From Ignavibacteria bacterium RIFOXYC2_FULL_35_21 (GTDB lineage Bacteria > Bacteroidota > Ignavibacteria > Kapaibacteriales > UBA2268), in contig MHAY01000001.1 of assembly GCA_001804705.1 (NCBI GenBank), forward strand, positions 1 through 64,000: 64,000 nt of DNA, read 5' to 3'. A program made the translations under genes and the position numbers. The notes beneath the pieces were generated by a model. The model searched no databases. It was not told the DNA's origin and saw only the letters and a list, made by a program, of their open reading frames with translations. Below are positions 50,499-63,065 of the stretch, one piece after another (position 1 is the stretch's first letter; the number at the start of each line of letters is the position of its first letter).

Positions 50499-51515
50499 AT
50501 GGATGCGGAAAATCAAATTATAAAAACAATACTCGATAATTTCAAAGGAACTAAGGGACATTTGAATGAGTTCTTTCATTCAGATTCAGAAATTATCAGG
50601 CTCGGAAATAAAGATTATCTCCTAACTGTTGACAACTATTCTGACGAAGACCACTTCCGGACAAACAACCCTTATGTTCTTGGCAGGAACCTTGCAGTCT
50701 CTACAATCAGCGATATTTTCGCCTCCGGAGGCAGGCCTGTTTTCTTTGCAAACAGTCTTACAAAAGCTGGAGACTGGGACCTTGAATATATTAATCGGTT
50801 TTCAAAAGGCATTTCAGATGTTTTGCAAATTTGTGATGCAGTGTTTATCGGTGGTGATTTAGGTTATTCTCACAATTGGAATTTTACCGGAATTGCCATA
50901 GGAGAGTCTGAACGAATCGTTACAAGGAAAGGAGCTGCTCCCGGTGATTTTATTTATCTGACCGGTCCTGTTGGAAACGGTAATTTTGAATCTGCATCCC
51001 AACTGACAAAACTTGTTAAGGGATTAGAGAATTTATTCGAGAACAATATCATTCAGTTCCCGCTAAGGCTTAAAGAATCCGGCCTTGTATCAAAATTTGC
51101 AAGTTCTTGCATTGATACAAGTGACGGACTTTTTAAATCACTAAGTATTATTTCAGAGTTAAATAATACAGGTTTTTTGATTTCTGATATACCATACTCG
51201 GACCCCGGGCTGAAACTTACAAACAGCCTGCATTTACCTGAAGAGATACTGATGTTTGGTGAAAGCGGTGAATATGAACTCATGTTTACAATTCATCCTC
51301 AGGATGAAATCAATATGCTCTCTAAGTCATCAGAACTTGACATCGAGTTGTTTAAAATCGGTAGTATAACAGAAAATAAACAAAAATTGATGCAGAATTC
51401 AGCTCAGTCAATCAATTTTAATGATTTTAACATTGAGGCAAGAAGTTTTGAAAGTCATTATGATTATATCGGCGAATTAACTCAATATTTGTCTAATAAA
51501 CTTCATAAAATGTGA
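50499..51515 (+). CDS. ThiL-like / AIR synthase-related kinase
   Basis: DYLLTVDNYSDEDHFR, GRNLAVSTISDIFASGGRPVFFANSL, IDTSDGLFKSL. Confidence 0.8.
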   Translation: MDAENQIIKTILDNFKGTKGHLNEFFHSDSEIIRLGNKDYLLTVDNYSDEDHFRTNNPYVLGRNLAVSTISDIFASGGRPVFFANSLTKAGDWDLEYINRFSKGISDVLQICDAVFIGGDLGYSHNWNFTGIAIGESERIVTRKGAAPGDFIYLTGPVGNGNFESASQLTKLVKGLENLFENNIIQFPLRLKESGLVSKFASSCIDTSDGLFKSLSIISELNNTGFLISDIPYSDPGLKLTNSLHLPEEILMFGESGEYELMFTIHPQDEINMLSKSSELDIELFKIGSITENKQKLMQNSAQSINFNDFNIEARSFESHYDYIGELTQYLSNKLHKM

Positions 51516-52546
51516 TGGGAAAGATAATCCTTACCGGAGCCAGTGGACTTACAGGAACTCACATTGCCGAGTATTTTTCTGCCCGAGGTCTGAAACTTAC
51601 TTGCCTGGTAAGGTGGAGCAGTAACATTGAATTCCTTAAAACACTAAATGTAGAAATATGTTATGCCGATTTAAATAATCCCGAAGAACTAAGAAAAGCC
51701 TTACACGGTGCTGAGTGTATTATTCATACAGCAGGAAAAGTCGGCGACTGGGGATGCTTCGATGAATTTTATAAAACTAATGTCATTGGCACATTAAACT
51801 TATTGGAAGCTGCAAAATTCAATGATGTCAAACATTTTATTACAACCGGTTCAATATCCTGTTATGGTGAGGAATCAACACCGGTCGTTAAAAATGAGGA
51901 AATGGAGTATAACTCTCATTATAATTATTTCCTTGATAAAATTTTTCCTTCCGGAATGAATTATTACAGAGACACAAAAGCTGAAATAAATAATCGTGCA
52001 ATAGAATATTGCAATAAAAATGATATTAACCTGACCATTATTGAACCGGCATGGATTTACGGAGAAAGGGAATTTAATTCCGGATTTTATGATTTTCTGA
52101 AATCAATGAAAAGCGGTTTGTCTTTTACACCCGGTTCAAGAAAAAACAAATTTCATACAATTTATGTAAGGGATTTGGCAAAAATCTATTACCTGGCTTA
52201 TCAGAAAAAGCTTGTCGGAATAAATAAAATTTTAGCAGTTGCGACTAAAGCAGAATTTCAATACAAATTACTCGATTTGTTCTGCTGGAACGCAGGTTTC
52301 AGGATTCCCAAAAGAATCCCAAAGTTTTTTATCTATCCGCCAGCTTTTTTAACCGAGCTTTTTTATACTGCTTTTCGAATAAAAACTGCTCCGGCGATAT
52401 CCCGTGCAAGAATTAATATTTTTTATGATAACATAGAATATTCTGGTAAAAAAGCCAGGGAACTACTTGGTTATGAACCGGACTATACTCTGGAAGAAAG
52501 CATAGAGAAAACTGTCAGGTGGTATAAGGATAATAACTATTTATAA
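51512..52546 (+). CDS. NAD-dependent epimerase/dehydratase or 3-beta-HSD family
   Basis: ILTGASGLTGTHIAEYF Rossmann motif; CIIHTAGKVGDWG; TGSISCYG; NYYRDTKAEINNRA. Confidence 0.88.
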   Translation: MMGKIILTGASGLTGTHIAEYFSARGLKLTCLVRWSSNIEFLKTLNVEICYADLNNPEELRKALHGAECIIHTAGKVGDWGCFDEFYKTNVIGTLNLLEAAKFNDVKHFITTGSISCYGEESTPVVKNEEMEYNSHYNYFLDKIFPSGMNYYRDTKAEINNRAIEYCNKNDINLTIIEPAWIYGEREFNSGFYDFLKSMKSGLSFTPGSRKNKFHTIYVRDLAKIYYLAYQKKLVGINKILAVATKAEFQYKLLDLFCWNAGFRIPKRIPKFFIYPPAFLTELFYTAFRIKTAPAISRARINIFYDNIEYSGKKARELLGYEPDYTLEESIEKTVRWYKDNNYL

Positions 52547-52556
52547 ATTTTTTTTA

Positions 52557-53852
52557 TTGTTTTATATGAAAAAGGTTAAAAATCTTATCGGTATCAGGAA
52601 AAGGATATATGAAATTTATATCAAAATCTATGTCCTTATGCATTTTACAAAAGAAATTGTTACAGGTAAGTTTCCTGTAAAAAATTTCTATAGATTTTTG
52701 AAAAGACTTTTATTCTTTCTTTCCAAGATGAGAGATAATAAATATGTCAAATCTGGCAAATACACAAAAGTCAATTTGTATGTCCCGGCTTTTCCATCAG
52801 AAGCTTTTTTCAAAGCTTGCAGGAAAGTAATGATTGCAGACGAAAAAATGCCCTGCGTTACAGTATTATTATCTGTTACTTCAGCATGCCGGTACAACTG
52901 TGAGCATTGCTATCAAAAGCTTGATTACGGGAAGGACATGGATATTAATATTCTCTGCGAGGTAACAAAACAGCTCGATAATATGGGTGTATCTTTTTTT
53001 AATATAGAGGGCGGAGAACCATTCCTTGTTTTCGACAGACTCGTAAAGCTCTGCAAAGCAGTTAATGTGGGTGAAATTTGGGTTAATTCAACAGGTGACG
53101 GAGTAACATTAGAGAGACTTCTTACTTTAAAGGAAATTGGGGTTAAGGGATTGATGTTTTCTCTTCATTCGGCAGAACCTGAAAAAATCAACTCTTTCAT
53201 GAAAAGCGATAAAGCCTGGTATAATCTGAATAACGGAATTGATTTATGTCACAAGGCAGGACTTAAAGTTGCTGCCAATACATGTATTTTAAAAGATGAT
53301 TATTATAATGGAACATTTGATACAATTCTTAACCTTGCAAAAGATATAGGAGTCTCTATTATCCAATTAATCAAGCCGAAACCCTCAGGCGGCTGGCTTG
53401 GTGCCGAGATTGATAACTTCACAAAAGAAGACTTGGAGTATATTGAGAAATTTGTTTTTATGTATAACAATCATCCGGAATTGATTGATTATCCATTTAT
53501 TGCTGCACAAATTGTTGATGAGAAGAGCGATATGTTTGGCTGTACGGCAGGCGGAACCGATAGGTTTTACATCAATGCAAAAGGGGATGTCCAGCCATGC
53601 GAGTTTCTGAATATTTCTTTTGGCAACATCACATCAGAGGATTTCACAAGCATATACACAAGAATGAGAAATAGCTTTAATGAACCGGGTGACCGTTGGC
53701 TGTGTGAAGTCTGTTCTAACAGCGTCAGGGAAACTGTTGTGGAACATGGTGTAAAGGCTCTGCCATTAAACAAGGAATTGTCATTAAATGTTATAAATAA
53801 TTGGCAGAGAGGAAATGTTCCTGACTTTTATAGAAAAGTTGTTGAATTATAA
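52557..53852 (+). CDS. Radical SAM / SPASM domain protein
   Basis: SACRYNCEHCYQ (CxxxCxxC); GGEPFLVFDRL; C-terminal GCTAGGTDRFYINAKGDVQPCEFL...WLCEVC. Confidence 0.9.
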   Translation: MFYMKKVKNLIGIRKRIYEIYIKIYVLMHFTKEIVTGKFPVKNFYRFLKRLLFFLSKMRDNKYVKSGKYTKVNLYVPAFPSEAFFKACRKVMIADEKMPCVTVLLSVTSACRYNCEHCYQKLDYGKDMDINILCEVTKQLDNMGVSFFNIEGGEPFLVFDRLVKLCKAVNVGEIWVNSTGDGVTLERLLTLKEIGVKGLMFSLHSAEPEKINSFMKSDKAWYNLNNGIDLCHKAGLKVAANTCILKDDYYNGTFDTILNLAKDIGVSIIQLIKPKPSGGWLGAEIDNFTKEDLEYIEKFVFMYNNHPELIDYPFIAAQIVDEKSDMFGCTAGGTDRFYINAKGDVQPCEFLNISFGNITSEDFTSIYTRMRNSFNEPGDRWLCEVCSNSVRETVVEHGVKALPLNKELSLNVINNWQRGNVPDFYRKVVEL

Positions 53853-53862
53853 AAATTAAAAT

Positions 53863-54888
53863 ATGAAAACCGGAAATAAATATATTACATTTATCAGGGC
53901 ATATATTAAATCAATGAGATTATATTACTCATTCATTACGGGTATTAGCGGTTTAATAGGTTTATCATTTTATCAGTATCTCGCTTACTCCGGTGATGAC
54001 AAAACATTTTTTGGTTTTAACCATACTATTGAAACACCAACACCTTTGCCGAAATTGTTATTAATTCTTATTATTCTATTTCTCAGTTGGGGAATCAATC
54101 AAATTTATAATGACTATCTTGGATTAAAGGAAGACAGGATTAATGCCCCCGATAGACCAATGGTCTCTGGTGAGCTCAATCCCCTGGCAGCTGTTTTTGT
54201 TTCAACTATGCTGATGATAATAGCATTTTGCTTAACATGGTTTTTCCTCGAAACCGAAGCAATCATCCCATTGATTATTGGAGTTGGTTTAAATATCCTT
54301 TATGAATATGCCAAGGGCTATGGTTTATGGGGAAACATAATTTTCGGTTTCATGATTTCTACTTGTAGCATGTATGGTTTTCTTGCATCAGGAAAATCAG
54401 ACATATCATTGTTTTCATTAAGCCAGATTCTGCTGATAGTTTACATAGCTTTAATAAATGGCTTGATGACGTTCTATACATATTTTAAGGATTATGAAGG
54501 CGATAAAGCTGTTGGTAAAAAGACCATCATCGTCAGGATGGGATTGGTTAAATCGCAGAAATTATCCATCATAGCATCATTTCTTCCCTTAGCTGTATTC
54601 TTAATTTTTTATTACGGTATCGGAGCTTGGCATTTCGAGTTAAACGGTATTTTTCTTGTTTTAGGCCTTTTGGCTACAGGCTTGCAGATATGGACCGGTT
54701 ATCTTTATTTTATTAATCCGAAAGGAGAAATGACATATTTTTCTCTGGCTATGAATTTCAGAGCATGCACATGTTCGGAATCGGCATTGATTTCCGTATT
54801 TAATCCTGCTTTGGGTGTTGTTCTGTTCCTTATGTCATATTTCTTTATTGGTTTTCTTTTTAATTTTCATGTTAATAGAAAGGGTTAA
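53863..54888 (+). CDS. UbiA-family prenyltransferase
   Basis: INQIYNDYLGLKEDRINAPDRPMVSGELN and TYFKDYEGDKAVGKKTIIVRMG; multi-TM. Confidence 0.9.
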   Translation: MKTGNKYITFIRAYIKSMRLYYSFITGISGLIGLSFYQYLAYSGDDKTFFGFNHTIETPTPLPKLLLILIILFLSWGINQIYNDYLGLKEDRINAPDRPMVSGELNPLAAVFVSTMLMIIAFCLTWFFLETEAIIPLIIGVGLNILYEYAKGYGLWGNIIFGFMISTCSMYGFLASGKSDISLFSLSQILLIVYIALINGLMTFYTYFKDYEGDKAVGKKTIIVRMGLVKSQKLSIIASFLPLAVFLIFYYGIGAWHFELNGIFLVLGLLATGLQIWTGYLYFINPKGEMTYFSLAMNFRACTCSESALISVFNPALGVVLFLMSYFFIGFLFNFHVNRKG

Positions 54889-54890
54889 CT

Positions 54891-56105
54891 GTGACTAACT
54901 TGCTCTTCAGTGGAAAAAATATCGGTAAGCTGCATCTGAAAAACCGGATAATACGTTCAGCCACCTACGAAGGCGCCAGCGACCGTTATGGATTTCCGGC
55001 TAAGAAGTATTTGACTATTTATGAAACCCTGGCAAAATATGACGTTGGAATGATTATCACAGGCTTTTCTTATGTCTCGAAACAAGGGAAAGCAATGCAG
55101 ACAGCTCAATCCGGCATTGATTCCGCAGAGAAAATTAAGTATTTCCGTGATGTTACAAATGCAGTCCATAATTATAATTGTCCTATTATTTTGCAATTAG
55201 CTCACACCGGCAGGCAAACCTTAGAAATTGAAACAGGAACAACCCCGGTTTCAAGCACAACGAAAAAATCAATCTATTTCAGAGAAAAACCTAAGCTTAT
55301 AACTCCGGAAGAAATAAAGGAAGTCATAACTCAATTTACCAACTCTTCAATTTATGCTAAAGAAAGTGGATTCGACGGTGTTCAGCTTCATGCTGGGCAT
55401 GGCTATCTTCTTCATCAGTTTTTATTACCTGAAACCAATAAACTATCTAACGAATTTGGTATTGATAAATCAACAGGATTCGGAACAAAAATTATTGATG
55501 TTATTATAGATAATATCAAAGAGAAATGCGGAAATGATTTCCCGGTGCTTATCAAAATCAGCGGGAACCATGATATTTCGAATAATTATCATAGTGATAA
55601 GTTTGAAAATCTTATAGCCTTTTTAGATTCAAAGCGGTTTTCTGCCATCGAAATCAGTTATGGTACGATGGATTACCCTCTTAATATTTTTAGGGGGAAC
55701 CTGAACCTCGATACTGTTTATAGATATAATCCGATTTACAAAACCGACAGCAAAATCAAAAGATTTCTTTCTGAACAGTATATTCAAAGAATCATTCAGC
55801 CAAAATTTAAGAAATTTACCCGGATGTATAATCTCAGTTTTGCCGAAAGAGCTAAGAAACTAACTGATATACCAATAATCTCCGTTGGTGGTTTCAGGTC
55901 GGGAAATGAAATTGAATTTGCCATTTCAAAAGGTAAAGCGGATTTTGTCAGTCTTTCAAGGCCCTTTATTTGTGAACCCGATTTTGTAATAAAACTGAAA
56001 AATTCCGGGATTAACTATGAATCTAAATGTAAAAATTGCAATGAATGTGTTTTTATGTGTGACTCAGGTAAAGTCACTGCTTGTTATACAAATAATAAAA
56101 ATTAA
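54891..56105 (+). CDS. NADH:flavin oxidoreductase / Old Yellow Enzyme-like with C-terminal Cys cluster
   Basis: LKNRIIRSATYEGASD; ILQLAHTGRQT; FDGVQLHAGHGYLLHQFLLPETNK; CKNCNECVFMC. Confidence 0.88.
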   Translation: MTNLLFSGKNIGKLHLKNRIIRSATYEGASDRYGFPAKKYLTIYETLAKYDVGMIITGFSYVSKQGKAMQTAQSGIDSAEKIKYFRDVTNAVHNYNCPIILQLAHTGRQTLEIETGTTPVSSTTKKSIYFREKPKLITPEEIKEVITQFTNSSIYAKESGFDGVQLHAGHGYLLHQFLLPETNKLSNEFGIDKSTGFGTKIIDVIIDNIKEKCGNDFPVLIKISGNHDISNNYHSDKFENLIAFLDSKRFSAIEISYGTMDYPLNIFRGNLNLDTVYRYNPIYKTDSKIKRFLSEQYIQRIIQPKFKKFTRMYNLSFAERAKKLTDIPIISVGGFRSGNEIEFAISKGKADFVSLSRPFICEPDFVIKLKNSGINYESKCKNCNECVFMCDSGKVTACYTNNKN

Positions 56106-56125
56106 TTTTTTAAGGAGTATTAATC

Positions 56126-57307
56126 ATGATGAATCCTGAAAATAATCTGAAAGACAGAGTAGAATACGATGATTCTGTTCTGACAAATATCGGATATAAT
56201 CCTTATTATTTATCGATTAATAGTGAACAGTCCGATATGATAACCGTTAACGGCAGAAAAATGATAAACCTTGCAACAAATAACTATCTTGGTTTATCTA
56301 ATGATGAAAGAATCAAATCTGCTTATATTGACGCTATTAATAAATATGGAATATCCATGTGCGCTACTCCCATTGCAGGTGGGTATACTGAACTATTTGA
56401 AACAACACAGAAAAAACTGTCCCGTTTTATCGGTGTCGAAAACGTGCTTGTCTATCCATCCTGCTACCAGGCAAATAATGGTATTTTCCAGGCAGTTGCT
56501 CGTAAGGAAGATTTAATTCTTTTTGACAGGTATGCTCATTCTTCGCTAATTCAGGGAATAAAAAGTGTTGGATGCAAAATGCTTCCCTTCAGCCATAACA
56601 ATGTTGAATGTCTTGAGTATCTTCTTAATAAATCAACAAATTTTGCGAAAGTATTTGTTGTAACCGAATCGGTTTTTTCTACTGAAGGGGCAATAGCACC
56701 TTTCAGAGAAATTTATGATTTATGCAAAAAATACGATGCAATTCCGGTTGTTGATGACTCACATGGAATAGGTGTTATCGGTAAAAACGGAAGAGGAATA
56801 CTTACTTTTTCTGGAATTGAAAATTATGAAGGGATTTATACATCTTCGCTTGGGAAAGCTTTGGCTAATAATTGTGGTGTTGTAGGAGGCAGTAAGGAAC
56901 TTATCAGCTTTTTGAGTTTTTTCAGCTCCCATCTGATTTATTCTACTGCTGTTTCACCGGCTGTTTTGGCTGGTATTAACAAGACAATAGAAATAGTAGA
57001 AGAAGAATATTACTCACTTGCAAAGACAATCTACACTTATTCACAGGAGATTAAATCGTCCCTGATTGAAAATGGGTTTAAAGTTTCTGACAGCAAAGCA
57101 CCGATTAATTCGATTATAGCCGGAACATCTGACAAAACTGTTGATTTGGCAAAACAATTATTTCTGAAGGATGTTTTATCAACACCGTTTATTTTCCCAT
57201 CCGTTCCCAAAAATGACGGCAGAATAAGGCTGATTGCCGGTGCAAATCTTAAAGAATGCACTATTGACAGGGTGCTGGAGCTATTTAAAAATATCAGGTT
57301 AAACTGA
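56126..57307 (+). CDS. PLP-dependent alpha-oxoamine synthase family (AONS / KBL / serine palmitoyltransferase-like)
   Basis: NLATNNYLGLSNDERIK; VVDDSHGIGVIGKNGRG; YTSSLGKALANNCGVVGG. Confidence 0.9.
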   Translation: MMNPENNLKDRVEYDDSVLTNIGYNPYYLSINSEQSDMITVNGRKMINLATNNYLGLSNDERIKSAYIDAINKYGISMCATPIAGGYTELFETTQKKLSRFIGVENVLVYPSCYQANNGIFQAVARKEDLILFDRYAHSSLIQGIKSVGCKMLPFSHNNVECLEYLLNKSTNFAKVFVVTESVFSTEGAIAPFREIYDLCKKYDAIPVVDDSHGIGVIGKNGRGILTFSGIENYEGIYTSSLGKALANNCGVVGGSKELISFLSFFSSHLIYSTAVSPAVLAGINKTIEIVEEEYYSLAKTIYTYSQEIKSSLIENGFKVSDSKAPINSIIAGTSDKTVDLAKQLFLKDVLSTPFIFPSVPKNDGRIRLIAGANLKECTIDRVLELFKNIRLN

Positions 57308-57308
57308 G

Positions 57309-58241
57309 ATGAAAACCTTATTAATAATAAATCCATATTCAAGAAGTGGTAAATCTGCGAAACTTGCAAATATTTGTACGAAATATCTTAGAGAACGGAA
57401 TTTCGGATTTGAAACTACGGAATTAAAGAATTTTGATGATGCGTTCAAATTTTCTCAGGAAGCAAATCTATCCGGATATAATAATATAATTGCCCTTGGT
57501 GGAGACGGAACTATTAATAAGGTTTTAAACGGATTTTATGATTCGGATGGTAATAGAATTTCAGATGCTAATTTTGGTGTAATCTATACAGGTACGAGTC
57601 CTGATTTTTGTAAAAGTTATGGCATACCTACAAATATAATCAAAGCAACTGATGCTTTAATAAATCAAAGAGTCAGGGAAATACCGATTGGAATGATAAA
57701 ATTTAGAATAAGCCTGGATTCCAATAAATTTACTACTAATTACTTTGCATGCTGTGCAAATATCGGTTTGGGAGCCTCTCTTGCAAGAAAGGCTAATTCA
57801 GGTGTCAGGAAGTATTTTGGTGATTTCGCCGGAACACTTATCTCTTTGCTGCAATTGCTGAGCAAATACAGGGGAACAAATTATTCATTCATAAGAGATG
57901 GGGTGGAATCAAATCAACAGAACGTGATTAATATTTCTATTGGAATAACAAATTATATCGCTTCGGGAATTAAAGTAAGCAGAAAAAAGGATCTGGAAGA
58001 TTCGGAAATGTATCTGCTAACTACTGCAAATATAAGATTGTCAAATGTTCTTAAATTATTATATCGCGTTTATTCAGGCAAAGAATTTCAAAATTCGGAT
58101 TTTCTTTTTTTAAATTATGCTGAAAAGATTGAGATTCAGCAGAACTATATTCATCCTGATATTGAATTCGATGGTGATCCGGCGGGATTCCTTCCCTGCA
58201 GCATCGAAATGGCTAAGGATAAATTAAAGATTATTTATTAA
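57309..58241 (+). CDS. Diacylglycerol/sphingosine-kinase-like lipid kinase
   Basis: LLIINPYSRSGKSAKL; NIIALGGDGTINKVLNGF; EFDGDPAGFLPCSIEM. Confidence 0.88.
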   Translation: MKTLLIINPYSRSGKSAKLANICTKYLRERNFGFETTELKNFDDAFKFSQEANLSGYNNIIALGGDGTINKVLNGFYDSDGNRISDANFGVIYTGTSPDFCKSYGIPTNIIKATDALINQRVREIPIGMIKFRISLDSNKFTTNYFACCANIGLGASLARKANSGVRKYFGDFAGTLISLLQLLSKYRGTNYSFIRDGVESNQQNVINISIGITNYIASGIKVSRKKDLEDSEMYLLTTANIRLSNVLKLLYRVYSGKEFQNSDFLFLNYAEKIEIQQNYIHPDIEFDGDPAGFLPCSIEMAKDKLKIIY

Positions 58242-58256
58242 CTGTGTAATTGAATT

Positions 58257-59252
58257 ATGGTTGTATTGAAAAATAAAATATTCATTTTACTTATTATAGA
58301 TTTTATTCTATTGGTACTGGCTTTTTTTAATTGTATATTATTATGGAACAAAGCAGGACTCCCACAAGAATACAAATCAAATATCAATAGCTTCTCCTTT
58401 GATGTGAGGCATATAAATAAAGGTGAAAGAATTATCGAATTTGACGGAAAGGCCATGGATAAATCCGTGCTAATTGATTTCCATTTAATGCACCATAAAA
58501 TTAATGATACCGTAAATATCAAGTCCATAAGAAATGAGAAAATCTTTGAAAAAAAAGTTATCCTACCTGAACATTATAAGAGAACTGACCTTATCATTCT
58601 TATAATTGTAACATTACTTTACTTTTTCACAGGTATATATATTCTGATTAAATATAGGTCATCAGAATTTGCAATAGTCATTCATATGCTTTCAATTTGT
58701 ACTGCAGTAATGCTAATATACGATTGGGGAGATTTGACGACTTATAGTAAAATATTAAATTTTATAATCATGGCAATTTATGAAATAGGTATTTTTATGG
58801 TACCTACTTTATTCCTGCACTTCAGTTTTAATTATCCGGCTTACAGATCTAAAGTCAGGCTTGTACTCCTAGTTCCATTTTATTTTATGAGCTTTGTTTG
58901 TATCATCATTACTTTAATAAATCTTTCAAGAATAATATTTTTCAATATTGCAATTGAAAAAACTTACTTCCTGCAATTTTACACATATATAGCAGATATT
59001 TTTTTGGTAATAGGGTTAATTCTGACGGTAGCCAAGCTGGAACATTCAGCCTTAACAATAACGGGCGCACTTTCCAGAAAGCAAATTTACTGGGCTTTGC
59101 TTGGTATTTCTTTCGGACCCTTAGTTTATGTATTTCTCTATCTGATTCCGCGATTGTTGCTTGGTTTTGAACTGGTAAGTGAGGTATTTCTGGATTTAAC
59201 AATTATTGTTGCACCAATTATGTTATTAATTTCTGTTTCGAGGAGAAAATAG
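58257..59252 (+). CDS. Multi-TM (7TM-like) sensor module without kinase, paralogous to N-terminus of 60588 kinase
   Basis: WGDL..LNF...IYEIGIF..P..FLHFSFNYP and RKQIYWALLGISFGPLVYVFLYLIPRLL match the 60588 protein region by eye. Confidence 0.75.
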   Translation: MVVLKNKIFILLIIDFILLVLAFFNCILLWNKAGLPQEYKSNINSFSFDVRHINKGERIIEFDGKAMDKSVLIDFHLMHHKINDTVNIKSIRNEKIFEKKVILPEHYKRTDLIILIIVTLLYFFTGIYILIKYRSSEFAIVIHMLSICTAVMLIYDWGDLTTYSKILNFIIMAIYEIGIFMVPTLFLHFSFNYPAYRSKVRLVLLVPFYFMSFVCIIITLINLSRIIFFNIAIEKTYFLQFYTYIADIFLVIGLILTVAKLEHSALTITGALSRKQIYWALLGISFGPLVYVFLYLIPRLLLGFELVSEVFLDLTIIVAPIMLLISVSRRK

Positions 59253-59439: not shown

Positions 59440-60522
59440 ATGAAACTAAAAATATATATTATTATATTATTATCATACGCTACTTTCATAACTGCTGAAG
59501 GAGCAAACGACACTATCGCGGCAACTAAACTAGATGTTTTTCCTTTTGTCCTCTACGACACTGATATTGGCTTCGGTGCAGGAGTGAAAGGATATTATTT
59601 CAATCCATTTGAACAAAACGAGTCATTCGATATATTGCTTTTTGCCAGTACCAAGGGTGAGAGGCGTATTGCGTTTGGATTTTCAGAGCCTGATTATCAA
59701 TACAGACAAAGGAAGATTTATGATTTTGCGTTTGATTTGTTAGTTGACTATGATTTATTGATTCAAAACAACTTTTTTGGAATAGGTAACCAAGCAAAAT
59801 TTGAAGATAGGGAGTATTATTCCCGCGAGCCGCTTGAAATCAGTATGACTGCGAGCAGAGCTTTCTCACCATATTTTATCGCCTCATCAGGTTTAAGGTA
59901 CAAGACAATTGCAAATAATAACCTCGGTGAAAACAGCAAATTGAAATCAACGGGCAATGCGTTGAACACATCACGTATTAATGCAACTTCATTCTTTATT
60001 AATGCCAGGTATGACACAAAGAACAGTTTTATTAATCCCAGCGAAGGTGTTTTTATAAAAGGGGAAATAGAGTATATACCTAATATTATTATCAATAATG
60101 TAAATTATGTAAAGATATATTCGGATTTACAGTATTATTACACAATACATTTTATAAAAACAATATTTGCAACACGGATGAAAATTGAAAGTCTGATAGG
60201 TTACAATTTGCCCGTTCAGGTTTTATTGCCCGTTGGAGGCAATAGAACTGTCCGTGGAGAACCACAAGACCGTTTTTTGGATATGAGCTCGGCTGTTTTT
60301 AATGCTGAACTAAGATACCCCATTTATTGGCGGTTTGGCGGAATAATCGGATTTGATGCAGGTAAAGTATGGCATTCAATTGATAAAATGGATTTTGCAA
60401 GATGGGTATTAAGTCCAGCTTTGGGATTGAGGTTTTATTTCGATACGTTTGTAGTTAGGTTTGACGCAGGATTTAGCAGAGAATATACAGGATTCTATTT
60501 TAATGTCGAGCATATATTTTAA
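59440..60522 (+). CDS. Omp85/BamA-like outer-membrane barrel protein without evident POTRA domains
   Basis: Signal peptide; VLLPVGGNRTVRGEPQDRFLDMSSAVFNAELRYPIYWRFGGIIGFDAGKVW surface-antigen motif. Confidence 0.75.
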   Translation: MKLKIYIIILLSYATFITAEGANDTIAATKLDVFPFVLYDTDIGFGAGVKGYYFNPFEQNESFDILLFASTKGERRIAFGFSEPDYQYRQRKIYDFAFDLLVDYDLLIQNNFFGIGNQAKFEDREYYSREPLEISMTASRAFSPYFIASSGLRYKTIANNNLGENSKLKSTGNALNTSRINATSFFINARYDTKNSFINPSEGVFIKGEIEYIPNIIINNVNYVKIYSDLQYYYTIHFIKTIFATRMKIESLIGYNLPVQVLLPVGGNRTVRGEPQDRFLDMSSAVFNAELRYPIYWRFGGIIGFDAGKVWHSIDKMDFARWVLSPALGLRFYFDTFVVRFDAGFSREYTGFYFNVEHIF

Positions 60523-60587: not shown

Positions 60588-63065
60588 ATGAAAAAATCAA
60601 GCTTAAAAATCACAATCATACTTGCTATTGATGCAGTGTTAATAGCATTGTGTGTCTTAAATATTATAGGAGTATCCAGGAAATCTGATGTTCCTAATTA
60701 TGATAAGCAGGACTTGGTTTTTAATAAAAACTTCGACGGAATACAAAAAGGTGATATACTTGCAAAGCTCAATGAAAGGGAAATTTCGGACTCACAGGCT
60801 CTTGAATACTCGTGTGATAATCTGCCTGTCGGAACTATAGTAACACTTGGGATCGAAAGAAACTGTAAACCTGTAGTAGCAAAAGTAGCTTTGATAAATT
60901 ATTATGATATTTTTTATATAATAGTTTTAATTTTTGTCGGGTTCATGTTTATTTTACCGGCAATATTTGTATTAATAAAAAAACCTGAAGAAACCTTTTC
61001 TTATGTATTCCATTTGTTGATGTTGTCTATTACATTGATGATTGTATTGACCTGGGGGGATATGTCTGTATTTGACATTAAACTCAATTTTGTAATCAGA
61101 AGCATATATGAAGTATCAATCTTCTCTACTCCAATTATTTTGGTTCATTTCAGCTTTCTTTTCCCGAGAAAAAAATGGAATAATCTGTCAAAACTCACTA
61201 TTCCTCTATATATATTTTTAGGTGCAGGATCGGTTTTTCTGATGGCTTTGACTTATCTGGCAATAGTTCAGAAATCGAGCAATGCTATTTATTTGTATGT
61301 CAGTATACATTACTATTTAACAAAAATTTTCTTCGCACCGGCATTGATTTTTGTTTTACTAAATTTTTTAGATTCTTATAAGAGATATAAAGAAGAATAT
61401 ATCAGACAAAAGCTTTTATGGATTATTCTGGGTTTTTGTTTTGGTCCTTCTGTATATGTATTGTTATGGATCTTACCACAATTGATTTTTGATGAGCCAT
61501 TCATAGATGAATCGATAATGATATTGACTACTGCAGTATCACCTGTTACATTTTTCTTATCAATTGTAAAATACAAGCTATTTGATATAAATTTAATAAT
61601 AAGACGAAGTACAGTTTATGCTTCAGCTATAATCATACTATCGATACTGTATGTAGGAATTTTTTACTTAGGCATCAGAATTATTCCTGAAAATCTGTCA
61701 AATATGCCTTCTGTTGAAGACATTGTTATTCTTACAACTGTCGGGGCAATAATTATTGCTCTGCTTTTCCATCGTACTAAGATGGCAATTCAGAAATTTA
61801 TTAACAGGAATTTATTTAAGGTAAAATATAATATTAACCGGGTTCAAATAAATTTTATTTCCGAAATAAAAAACTGTAATTCCTTTGAGCAAATAGCTGA
61901 TTTAGTCAAAAACTCAATAAATGAAATAATATCTGTTGATTCATTTGGCTTCATGTATTATGATCCATTAACAAAAAAGTTTGAGATTATAGAACAAAAA
62001 AATATAGAAATTAACAATGATAATTTAAATCTTTTATTTAAAGAAATAGTTGGTGATAAAGCCAATCAACCACTTTCTCTCAGGGATAGTATTGAAGAAG
62101 GTAACGATTTTCTTTGCAGAGAATCTCTATTGAACTCTTTTAATTCATCACTCATTATTTTTTATATTTCAGAGGATAGACAATTTTTTAATGCCTTACT
62201 TATGGGCAGAAAAAAAGATTTCTATATGTACACAAGTGAAGACATTGCTATTCTCACGACAATTATCAGCGAATCAGGTAAGGCAATTAACCGTCTAATC
62301 CTGGAAAGAGAGATATTTATGCAACAGGAAGAGAAAAGGCGTTTGGAAGAGTTAAATCAATTGAAATCATATTTTGTTTCAAGTGTTTCACACGAATTGA
62401 AAACACCTTTGACTTCAATAAGACTTTTTGCCGAACTGATGAGAACCAGACCCGAAATACAAGAACCAAAGAAATCAGAATACCTGGAAATCATACAAGG
62501 AGAATGTGACCGGTTGAACCGTCTTATCAGCAATGTACTTGATTTTGCAAAAATAGAGCGGGGTGCAAAAGAATATAAATATGAACCAATAAATTTGAAA
62601 GACCTTCTCGAATTGGTTCTTAAATCAATATCCTATCAGTTGAAAATAAAAAAATTCAAGCTTGAAATGGTAAGTGAAGAAATTGATTATAGTTTTACAG
62701 GTGACGCTGACGCCATTACAGAAGTCTATTTAAATTTACTTTCGAATGCAATAAAATATTCACTTTATAAAAAAGAAATCCTTATTAAATTATTCAGCAC
62801 TAAAGAAAATATTTGTATTAGTTTTACAGACAAAGGAATTGGTATTTCAGTTCAGGATAAAGGAAAAATATTTAATGAGTTCTACCGCTCAAAAGATGCA
62901 AATTCATCGAGTACGGGAGGCGCCGGAATAGGTTTATCCCTTGTAAATCACATTATGGCGGCACATAATTGCAAGGTAGAAGTCGAAAGCATTGTTGGTG
63001 TAGGAAGTACATTCACTCTTTATTTTCCTAAAGGAGTTACATATGAAAAAAATTCTGATAATTGA
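60588..63065 (+). CDS. Sensor histidine kinase with PDZ-like extracytoplasmic segment and 7TM region
   Basis: IQKGDILAKLNEREISDSQALEY...VGTIVTLGIERN; SSVSHELKTPLTSIRLFAELM; NLLSNAIKYS; DKGIGISVQDKGKIF; GGAGIGLSLV. Confidence 0.9.
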   Translation: MKKSSLKITIILAIDAVLIALCVLNIIGVSRKSDVPNYDKQDLVFNKNFDGIQKGDILAKLNEREISDSQALEYSCDNLPVGTIVTLGIERNCKPVVAKVALINYYDIFYIIVLIFVGFMFILPAIFVLIKKPEETFSYVFHLLMLSITLMIVLTWGDMSVFDIKLNFVIRSIYEVSIFSTPIILVHFSFLFPRKKWNNLSKLTIPLYIFLGAGSVFLMALTYLAIVQKSSNAIYLYVSIHYYLTKIFFAPALIFVLLNFLDSYKRYKEEYIRQKLLWIILGFCFGPSVYVLLWILPQLIFDEPFIDESIMILTTAVSPVTFFLSIVKYKLFDINLIIRRSTVYASAIIILSILYVGIFYLGIRIIPENLSNMPSVEDIVILTTVGAIIIALLFHRTKMAIQKFINRNLFKVKYNINRVQINFISEIKNCNSFEQIADLVKNSINEIISVDSFGFMYYDPLTKKFEIIEQKNIEINNDNLNLLFKEIVGDKANQPLSLRDSIEEGNDFLCRESLLNSFNSSLIIFYISEDRQFFNALLMGRKKDFYMYTSEDIAILTTIISESGKAINRLILEREIFMQQEEKRRLEELNQLKSYFVSSVSHELKTPLTSIRLFAELMRTRPEIQEPKKSEYLEIIQGECDRLNRLISNVLDFAKIERGAKEYKYEPINLKDLLELVLKSISYQLKIKKFKLEMVSEEIDYSFTGDADAITEVYLNLLSNAIKYSLYKKEILIKLFSTKENICISFTDKGIGISVQDKGKIFNEFYRSKDANSSSTGGAGIGLSLVNHIMAAHNCKVEVESIVGVGSTFTLYFPKGVTYEKNSDN

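Follow-up and report, generated by a model that had tools for sequence, protein, structure and literature searches.

Rhodobacterial genes for serine palmitoyltransferase (SPT), the enzyme that initiates sphingolipid synthesis, sit beside genes for a specialised acyl carrier protein (ACP) and an epimerase-family reductase (PMC9386255; PMC11324152), cerS being located in a separate operon in Caulobacter (PMC11324152), and a kinase of Bacteroidota phosphorylates dihydrosphingosine (PMC9045371). In this paper, we describe a cluster of seven genes on the forward strand of the Ignavibacteria bacterium RIFOXYC2_FULL_35_21 (contig MHAY01000001.1, positions 1 to 64,000; this whole stretch of 64,000 nucleotides is hereafter called the window), which encodes, from position 50499 to 58241, a ThiL-like kinase, an extended short-chain dehydrogenase/reductase (SDR), a radical S-adenosylmethionine (radical SAM) protein, a UbiA-family transferase, an Old-Yellow-Enzyme-type (OYE) oxidoreductase, an alpha-oxoamine synthase (AONS) and a DAGK-family lipid kinase. 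A preliminary description of this locus had likened part of it to the SPT, CerR and lipid-kinase steps of sphingolipid synthesis. Our analysis suggests, with a probability of about 0.45, that the cluster specifies a lipid pathway of patchy distribution that is as yet uncharacterised and begins in the manner of sphingolipid synthesis.

That these genes form one functional unit was assessed by a test set beforehand, namely their co-occurrence across genomes. The search query was composed of the real UbiA and radical SAM sequences together with decoy rows (randomly substituted copies) that guided the choice of motifs only; the search patterns were taken from UbiA only, and each hit was verified by tblastn against the real sequences. 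A single scan of 85,462 species genomes returned 79 UbiA loci, of which 60 have five or more of the cluster genes and 38 the complete set of seven. Among the loci readable for at least 8 kb beyond UbiA, at least five genes are kept in 50 of 54, and all seven in 37 of 54. The patterns made no selection for any cluster gene but UbiA, and the query contained no sequence at all of five of these other genes, so that their joint recurrence counts as independent evidence. The co-conserved loci show several gene orders, and those with at least five genes span, by record title, about 18 phyla, i.e. Ignavibacteriota, Bacteroidota, Bacillota, Cloacimonadota, Omnitrophota, Auribacterota, Neomarinimicrobiota, Latescibacterota, Calditrichota, Desulfobacterota, Spirochaetota, Synergistota, Armatimonadota, Planctomycetota, Riflebacteria, Bdellovibrionota, Kiritimatiellota and Lentisphaerota, the members of which we take to be mostly anaerobes. 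Joint recurrence on this scale decides the test clearly in favour of co-occurrence and rules out chance clustering, and the existence, conservation and coherence of a pathway are nearly certain. Most of the genomes are metagenome bins; the complete or isolate genomes include Petroclostridium sp. X23, several Desulfosporosinus and Alkaliphilus peptidifermentans, and the cultured hosts comprise Desulfosporosinus lacus, D. hippei, Petroclostridium sp. X23 and A. peptidifermentans.

Around the source organism the distribution is sparse. A search of the 123 genomes of the order with the radical SAM protein matched the source genome alone, and the UbiA protein had no match at E<=1e-15 among 395 further genomes in a sample of the phylum; likewise, no match was found in plasmids searched with the radical SAM protein, or in viral contigs searched with the radical SAM, UbiA and AONS proteins. 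The GC content of the cluster (34-36%) is similar to that of the surrounding DNA, so composition gives no sign of recent acquisition, and horizontal transfer is argued only from the patchy distribution. Distant homologues of the radical SAM protein in Bacteroidota (L005-L029, 23-30% identity) were considered as orthologous clusters and rejected, their neighbourhoods being unrelated. One of them (L024, 5237-11422) lies near an SDR and two sterol-desaturase/fatty-acid-hydroxylase-like proteins, possibly a lipid locus of its own.

In its widest form the cluster has nine genes, encoding a ketosynthase (KS) and an ACP in addition to the AONS, SDR, OYE, radical SAM, UbiA, DAGK and ThiL-like proteins. 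The usual order in Clostridia is UbiA-OYE-ACP-AONS-DAGK-ThiL-KS-SDR-radical SAM, and that of a Bacteroidales locus is ThiL-KS-SDR-radical SAM-UbiA-OYE-ACP-AONS-DAGK. In 39 loci, all from lineages outside Ignavibacteria, the ACP gene (Pfam PP-binding) immediately precedes that of AONS, and the KS, which is of the elongating type (Pfam ketoacyl-synt) with a conserved Cys-His-His, occurs in 37 loci. Neither is encoded in the window or in the other Ignavibacteria clusters; the earlier remark that the cluster has no ACP is thus correct for the window and for Ignavibacteria, but not for the cluster at large. The source genome does carry a housekeeping fabG-acpP-fabF set.

The family labels that had been given to the seven proteins are each backed by a Pfam match, and none of the proteins passes a curated NCBIfam cut-off, so that all seven fall outside the named equivalogs. 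The AONS (56126..57307, 393 aa; Pfam Aminotran_1_2), which we propose to be an SPT-like enzyme condensing an amino acid with an acyl-thioester, has H138, D210, H213 and the pyridoxal-phosphate lysine K244 in 62 of 62 orthologues and R368, presumably the arginine that binds the amino-acid carboxylate, in 61 of 62. It had been described as AONS/SPT-like. Most clusters have an AONS lineage of their own. In a maximum-likelihood tree against SPT, KBL and BioF references, a small set of six sequences, the window-type enzymes form their own clade (100/100) on a long stem outside all of them, and the window protein scores below every SPT cut-off. A second lineage, from Riflebacteria, Bdellovibrionota, Auribacterota and Armatimonadota, is sister to SPT with a support of 89/91. 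Only in two operons, from Kiritimatiellae and Lentisphaeria (L098 and L100), is the AONS a member of the SPT clade, nested with Sphingobacterium SPT (100/100); the best NCBIfam model for these two is SPT, yet they too stay below its cut-off. The UbiA, radical SAM and ThiL-like partners are retained in both operons despite the exchange of the AONS, which supports a shared SPT-like reaction. The earlier comparison with sphingolipid synthesis gains support from these SPT-clade enzymes and from the ACP that adjoins the AONS in other lineages, as it does SPT in Rhodobacteria. The simplest reading of this exchange is that the three AONS lineages would perform one job, an SPT-like condensation, and on balance an SPT-like initiation of the pathway is likely. 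The source genome encodes in addition a separate SPT-clade enzyme (L002) and a true KBL (L003, 552 bits, above the cut-off); the AONS of the window is thus distinct from both and a third member of this family.

With the exception of UbiA, the remaining enzymes also have intact active sites. The SDR (51512..52546, 344 aa; Pfam Epimerase, 3Beta_HSD), a member of the epimerase/3beta-HSD family and the proposed ketone reductase, has an invariant GxxGxxG motif, and Y152/K156 in 47 of 52 orthologues. It belongs to the same superfamily as CerR, the match being at superfamily level only, and its nearest NCBIfam model is HpnA, far under the cut-off. The OYE-type FMN oxidoreductase (54891..56105, 404 aa; Pfam Oxidored_FMN) is without an FAD/NAD domain and carries a C-terminal Fe-S cysteine motif; H167, H170 and Y172 as well as C380, C383, C386 and C398 are conserved in 61-62 of 62 orthologues. 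The radical SAM/SPASM protein (52557..53852, 431 aa; Pfam Radical_SAM and SPASM) has both the CxxxCxxC motif of its superfamily (C111, C115, C118) and the auxiliary cysteines C329, C348 and C383 in 53 of 53 orthologues, and its fold matches are the SPASM/twitch enzymes SkfB, BlsE and MoaA. By analogy with MoaA, the three auxiliary cysteines are compatible with an auxiliary cluster that has an open site. Judged by the nearest relative, the start codon of this protein is probably the ATG at 52566 and not the TTG at 52557.

The UbiA protein (53863..54888, 341 aa) has a well-supported fold (Pfam UbiA; predicted model with a pLDDT of 89) and an unusual active site. Its nearest solved structure, by sequence as well as by fold, is digeranylgeranylglyceryl phosphate synthase (MjDGGGPS, 6M31), which acts on a lipid phosphate. 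UbiA enzymes are known to group by acceptor, and Asp66 in motif 1 of MjDGGGPS binds Mg2+ (PMC9385802). Unlike MjDGGGPS, the cluster enzyme departs from the N-x3-D-x3-D consensus of this motif (NDYLGLKED in the window), the middle Asp being replaced by Gly (G87) in 69 of 71 orthologues, and a conserved Tyr aligns with Asp180; the Asp pair of motif 3 is kept (D210 and D214 in 70-71 of 71). As the fold is nearest to that of MjDGGGPS, we prefer alkylation of a lipid phosphate, and our best guess from sequence and model is that the enzyme would carry this out with a changed metal site. The preliminary description had spoken of a prenyl-linked lipid, which, given the atypical motif, is only a possibility.

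Two kinases accompany the transferase. The DAGK/YegS-family lipid kinase (57309..58241, 310 aa; Pfam DAGK_cat and YegS_C) has the GGDGT motif in 53 of 53 orthologues and the YegS C-terminal domain, and its nearest solved structures are DgkB/BmrU-type kinases, followed by sphingosine kinase 1. The gene of the ThiL-like kinase of the AIR-synthase superfamily (50499..51515, 338 aa; Pfam AIRS) lies directly downstream of DAGK in 45 loci. ThiL is the nearest family of this protein, and the acidic ATP/metal residues are common to both (D29, D45, D72, D120 and D206, invariant in 57 orthologues); in contrast, the H-F motif of ThiL is replaced by a nearly invariant E-D pair, and the protein scores 133 bits against the NCBIfam thiL model, the cut-off of which is 184. 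It is a paralogue of thiamine-phosphate kinase. A housekeeping ThiL is unlikely, as the gene follows the distribution of the cluster and, in a Latescibacterota genome, is accompanied by a true ThiL (253 bits). No canonical thiL was found in the source genome, where the second match to the model is HypE beside HypD, and a dual role in thiamine metabolism and in the cluster is conceivable in this organism. In a related Ignavibacteriales genome (L109, 5994-12992), a divergent module of the order SDR-DAGK-barrel-ThiL-UbiA includes neither AONS nor a radical SAM protein, which ties the two kinases to UbiA.

From the observed conservation, co-occurrence, family membership and intact catalytic residues, we infer the substrates, the order of steps and the product as follows. 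The KS and ACP would supply an acyl-ACP, a role probably filled in the lineage of the window by housekeeping FabF/AcpP or by an acyl-CoA. The AONS would join the acyl group with an amino acid (serine being the most likely candidate) to give CO2 and a 2-amino-3-ketone resembling a long-chain base, the ketone of which would be reduced by the SDR, and a conjugated double bond by the flavoenzyme. The DAGK-family kinase would then phosphorylate the head-group alcohol, and a second phosphorylation by the ThiL-like kinase may follow, in the way that ThiL acts on a phosphate monoester. UbiA, with its resemblance to an archaeal enzyme alkylating lipid phosphates, might attach a further moiety, probably a polyprenyl one, to the phosphorylated lipid, and the radical SAM enzyme might alter the head group or the chain by radical chemistry. 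On the best reading, the product would be a phosphorylated, possibly prenylated, sphingoid-like aminolipid; that it is both phosphorylated and prenyl-linked is no more than plausible. Only tentatively do we suggest that it represents a new class of membrane lipid or lipid-anchored cofactor, in which an SPT-type amino-ketone base is modified by the radical SAM enzyme, phosphorylated by the DAGK and ThiL-like kinases and joined to an isoprenoid by the atypical UbiA, and which is horizontally shared among anaerobes of about 18 phyla.

Several points weigh against a pathway of this kind. The Ignavibacteria clusters are without KS and ACP, and no CerS-type N-acyltransferase is found among the nine recurring genes, the source genome not having been searched for cerS. 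Given the separate clade and long stem of the window AONS, its amino acid could be glycine or alanine and its acyl group short; moreover, the exchange with SPT-clade enzymes is seen in two loci only, and the second lineage is placed as sister to SPT with a support of only 89/91. The proposed action of the ThiL-like protein on a phosphate is by analogy only, and UbiA is without one Mg2+-binding Asp, so that its reaction may not be prenyl transfer.

Among the other explanations, the one that survives best, though we consider it rather unlikely, is a prodiginine-like N-heterocycle. KS, ACP and AONS together form the core of prodigiosin bipyrrole formation (PigJ/PigH), and in the cluster the KS could likewise extend to a beta-ketoacyl-ACP, to which the AONS would add an amino acid; the resulting aminodiketone would cyclise to a hydroxypyrrole or pyrrolinone, to be prenylated and phosphorylated into a pigment or a lipid-anchored redox cofactor. 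The Riflebacteria clusters, which add a PKS-dehydratase-like protein and an MMPL exporter, are in keeping with such a product, and ring systems are often prenylated by UbiA enzymes (PMC9385802). However, Ignavibacteria keep everything else without a dedicated KS or ACP, the native AONS is replaced by an SPT-clade enzyme in L098 and L100, the cluster UbiA is nearest to a glycerolipid enzyme, and an aromatising oxidase was not seen.

It is also possible, but unlikely, that DAGK and the ThiL-like kinase act in succession to convert a lipid alcohol into a diphosphate donor for UbiA, the AONS, SDR, OYE and radical SAM enzymes making the acceptor or the alcohol. Consecutive kinases, VTE5 and VTE6, turn phytol into its diphosphate in this way. 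The adjacency of the two kinase genes in 45 loci would be accounted for, as would the L109 module and a UbiA-DAGK pair that stands alone at a contig end (L116); yet such a donor requires an allylic chain, of which there is no sign, the Mg2+/diphosphate motif of the cluster UbiA is altered, and the L109 UbiA is only ~24-26% identical to that of the window.

A canonical ceramide operon with accessory genes is improbable. The AONS, ACP, epimerase-family SDR and DAGK-family kinase do parallel spt, acpR, cerR and sphingosine kinase. On the other hand, neither CerS nor AasR is in the recurring set, and without CerS this is probably not the canonical ceramide pathway; most loci have an AONS that lies outside the SPT clade and under every SPT cut-off, the source genome has its separate SPT-clade enzyme, and UbiA, radical SAM, OYE and the ThiL-like kinase would be left unexplained. 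A small-molecule alpha-hydroxyketone signal of CqsA/LqsA type, suggested by the AONS family and a weak match to a CqsA-type model, is highly improbable, as the window AONS reaches 219 bits against a cut-off of 428, no sensor gene is common across the lineages, and UbiA, a lipid kinase and an ACP would be unneeded.

Returning to the locus itself, all seven open reading frames were found on the forward strand as first described, and the operon-like packing holds, with six intergenic gaps of -4, 10, 10, 2, 20 and 1 nt. The end of the cluster at 58241, however, had been placed too early, since a 331-aa membrane protein with a weak PDZ match (58257..59252, +) follows after 15 nt; the operon probably continues into this gene, homologues of which are found directly downstream of DAGK in three Ignavibacteria loci (L034, L038, L046). 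It is followed on the same strand by an Omp85-superfamily outer-membrane barrel (59440..60522; Pfam Omp85), possibly an accessory in Ignavibacteria, and by a PDZ/multi-transmembrane sensor histidine kinase (60588..63065; Pfam HisKA, HATPase_c), possibly a regulator there; homologues of both occur near the cluster in L032 and L038. The 331-aa protein resembles the sensor part of this histidine kinase, so that the PDZ-like multi-transmembrane sensor exists in standalone and kinase-fused forms, a pair that tracks the cluster in Ignavibacteria; a similar histidine kinase adjoins UbiA-DAGK in L116. The barrel is fused to an endo/exonuclease/phosphatase-type domain in L032 (5672-7792) and L038 (20095-22248), and so is its homologue next to the UbiA module in L109, where the fusion follows the module; the window copy is without this domain. 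In many Clostridia (L045, L047, L055), an XRE-type helix-turn-helix protein of ~150 aa is encoded upstream of UbiA and may regulate the cluster. A promoter scan gave a result near the shuffle mean; terminator-like sites exceed the shuffle mean but are located mostly within genes.

The statement that the cluster matches no nameable pathway agrees with our literature searches, whose coverage left out most subscription journals and which returned no description of this gene set. Its retention across many anaerobic phyla with intact active sites implies a shared, apparently undescribed molecule, possibly a biomarker lipid of anoxic settings. SPT-type lipid chemistry would thereby widen to Clostridia and many candidate phyla, and the cluster offers a test case for UbiA enzymes whose metal site is altered, as well as for a ThiL-like kinase that would act outside thiamine metabolism. 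Compared with known systems, it shares KS, ACP and AONS with prodigiosin PigJ/PigH, whereas no pyrrole-forming or oxidising partners were seen and its UbiA, kinases and radical SAM protein have no counterpart there. The SPT of Sphingobacterium multivorum (3A2B/8GUH) is the nearest solved relative of the AONS profile, with common catalytic residues, and the AONS of two clusters is nested within the clade of this SPT, whereas the window AONS stands on its long 100/100 branch below the SPT cut-offs. Because of this position of the AONS, and because four enzymes have no place in ceramide synthesis, we do not class the cluster as a member of the sphingolipid pathway. Relative to the sphingolipid operon genes of Caulobacter crescentus (spt, acpR, aasR, cerR, cerS), its recurring set is without AasR and CerS, has KS instead and adds UbiA, radical SAM, the Fe-S OYE and the ThiL-like kinase, while the features common to the two are an AONS-fold enzyme with an adjoining ACP (in most lineages), an epimerase-family reductase and a lipid-kinase step.

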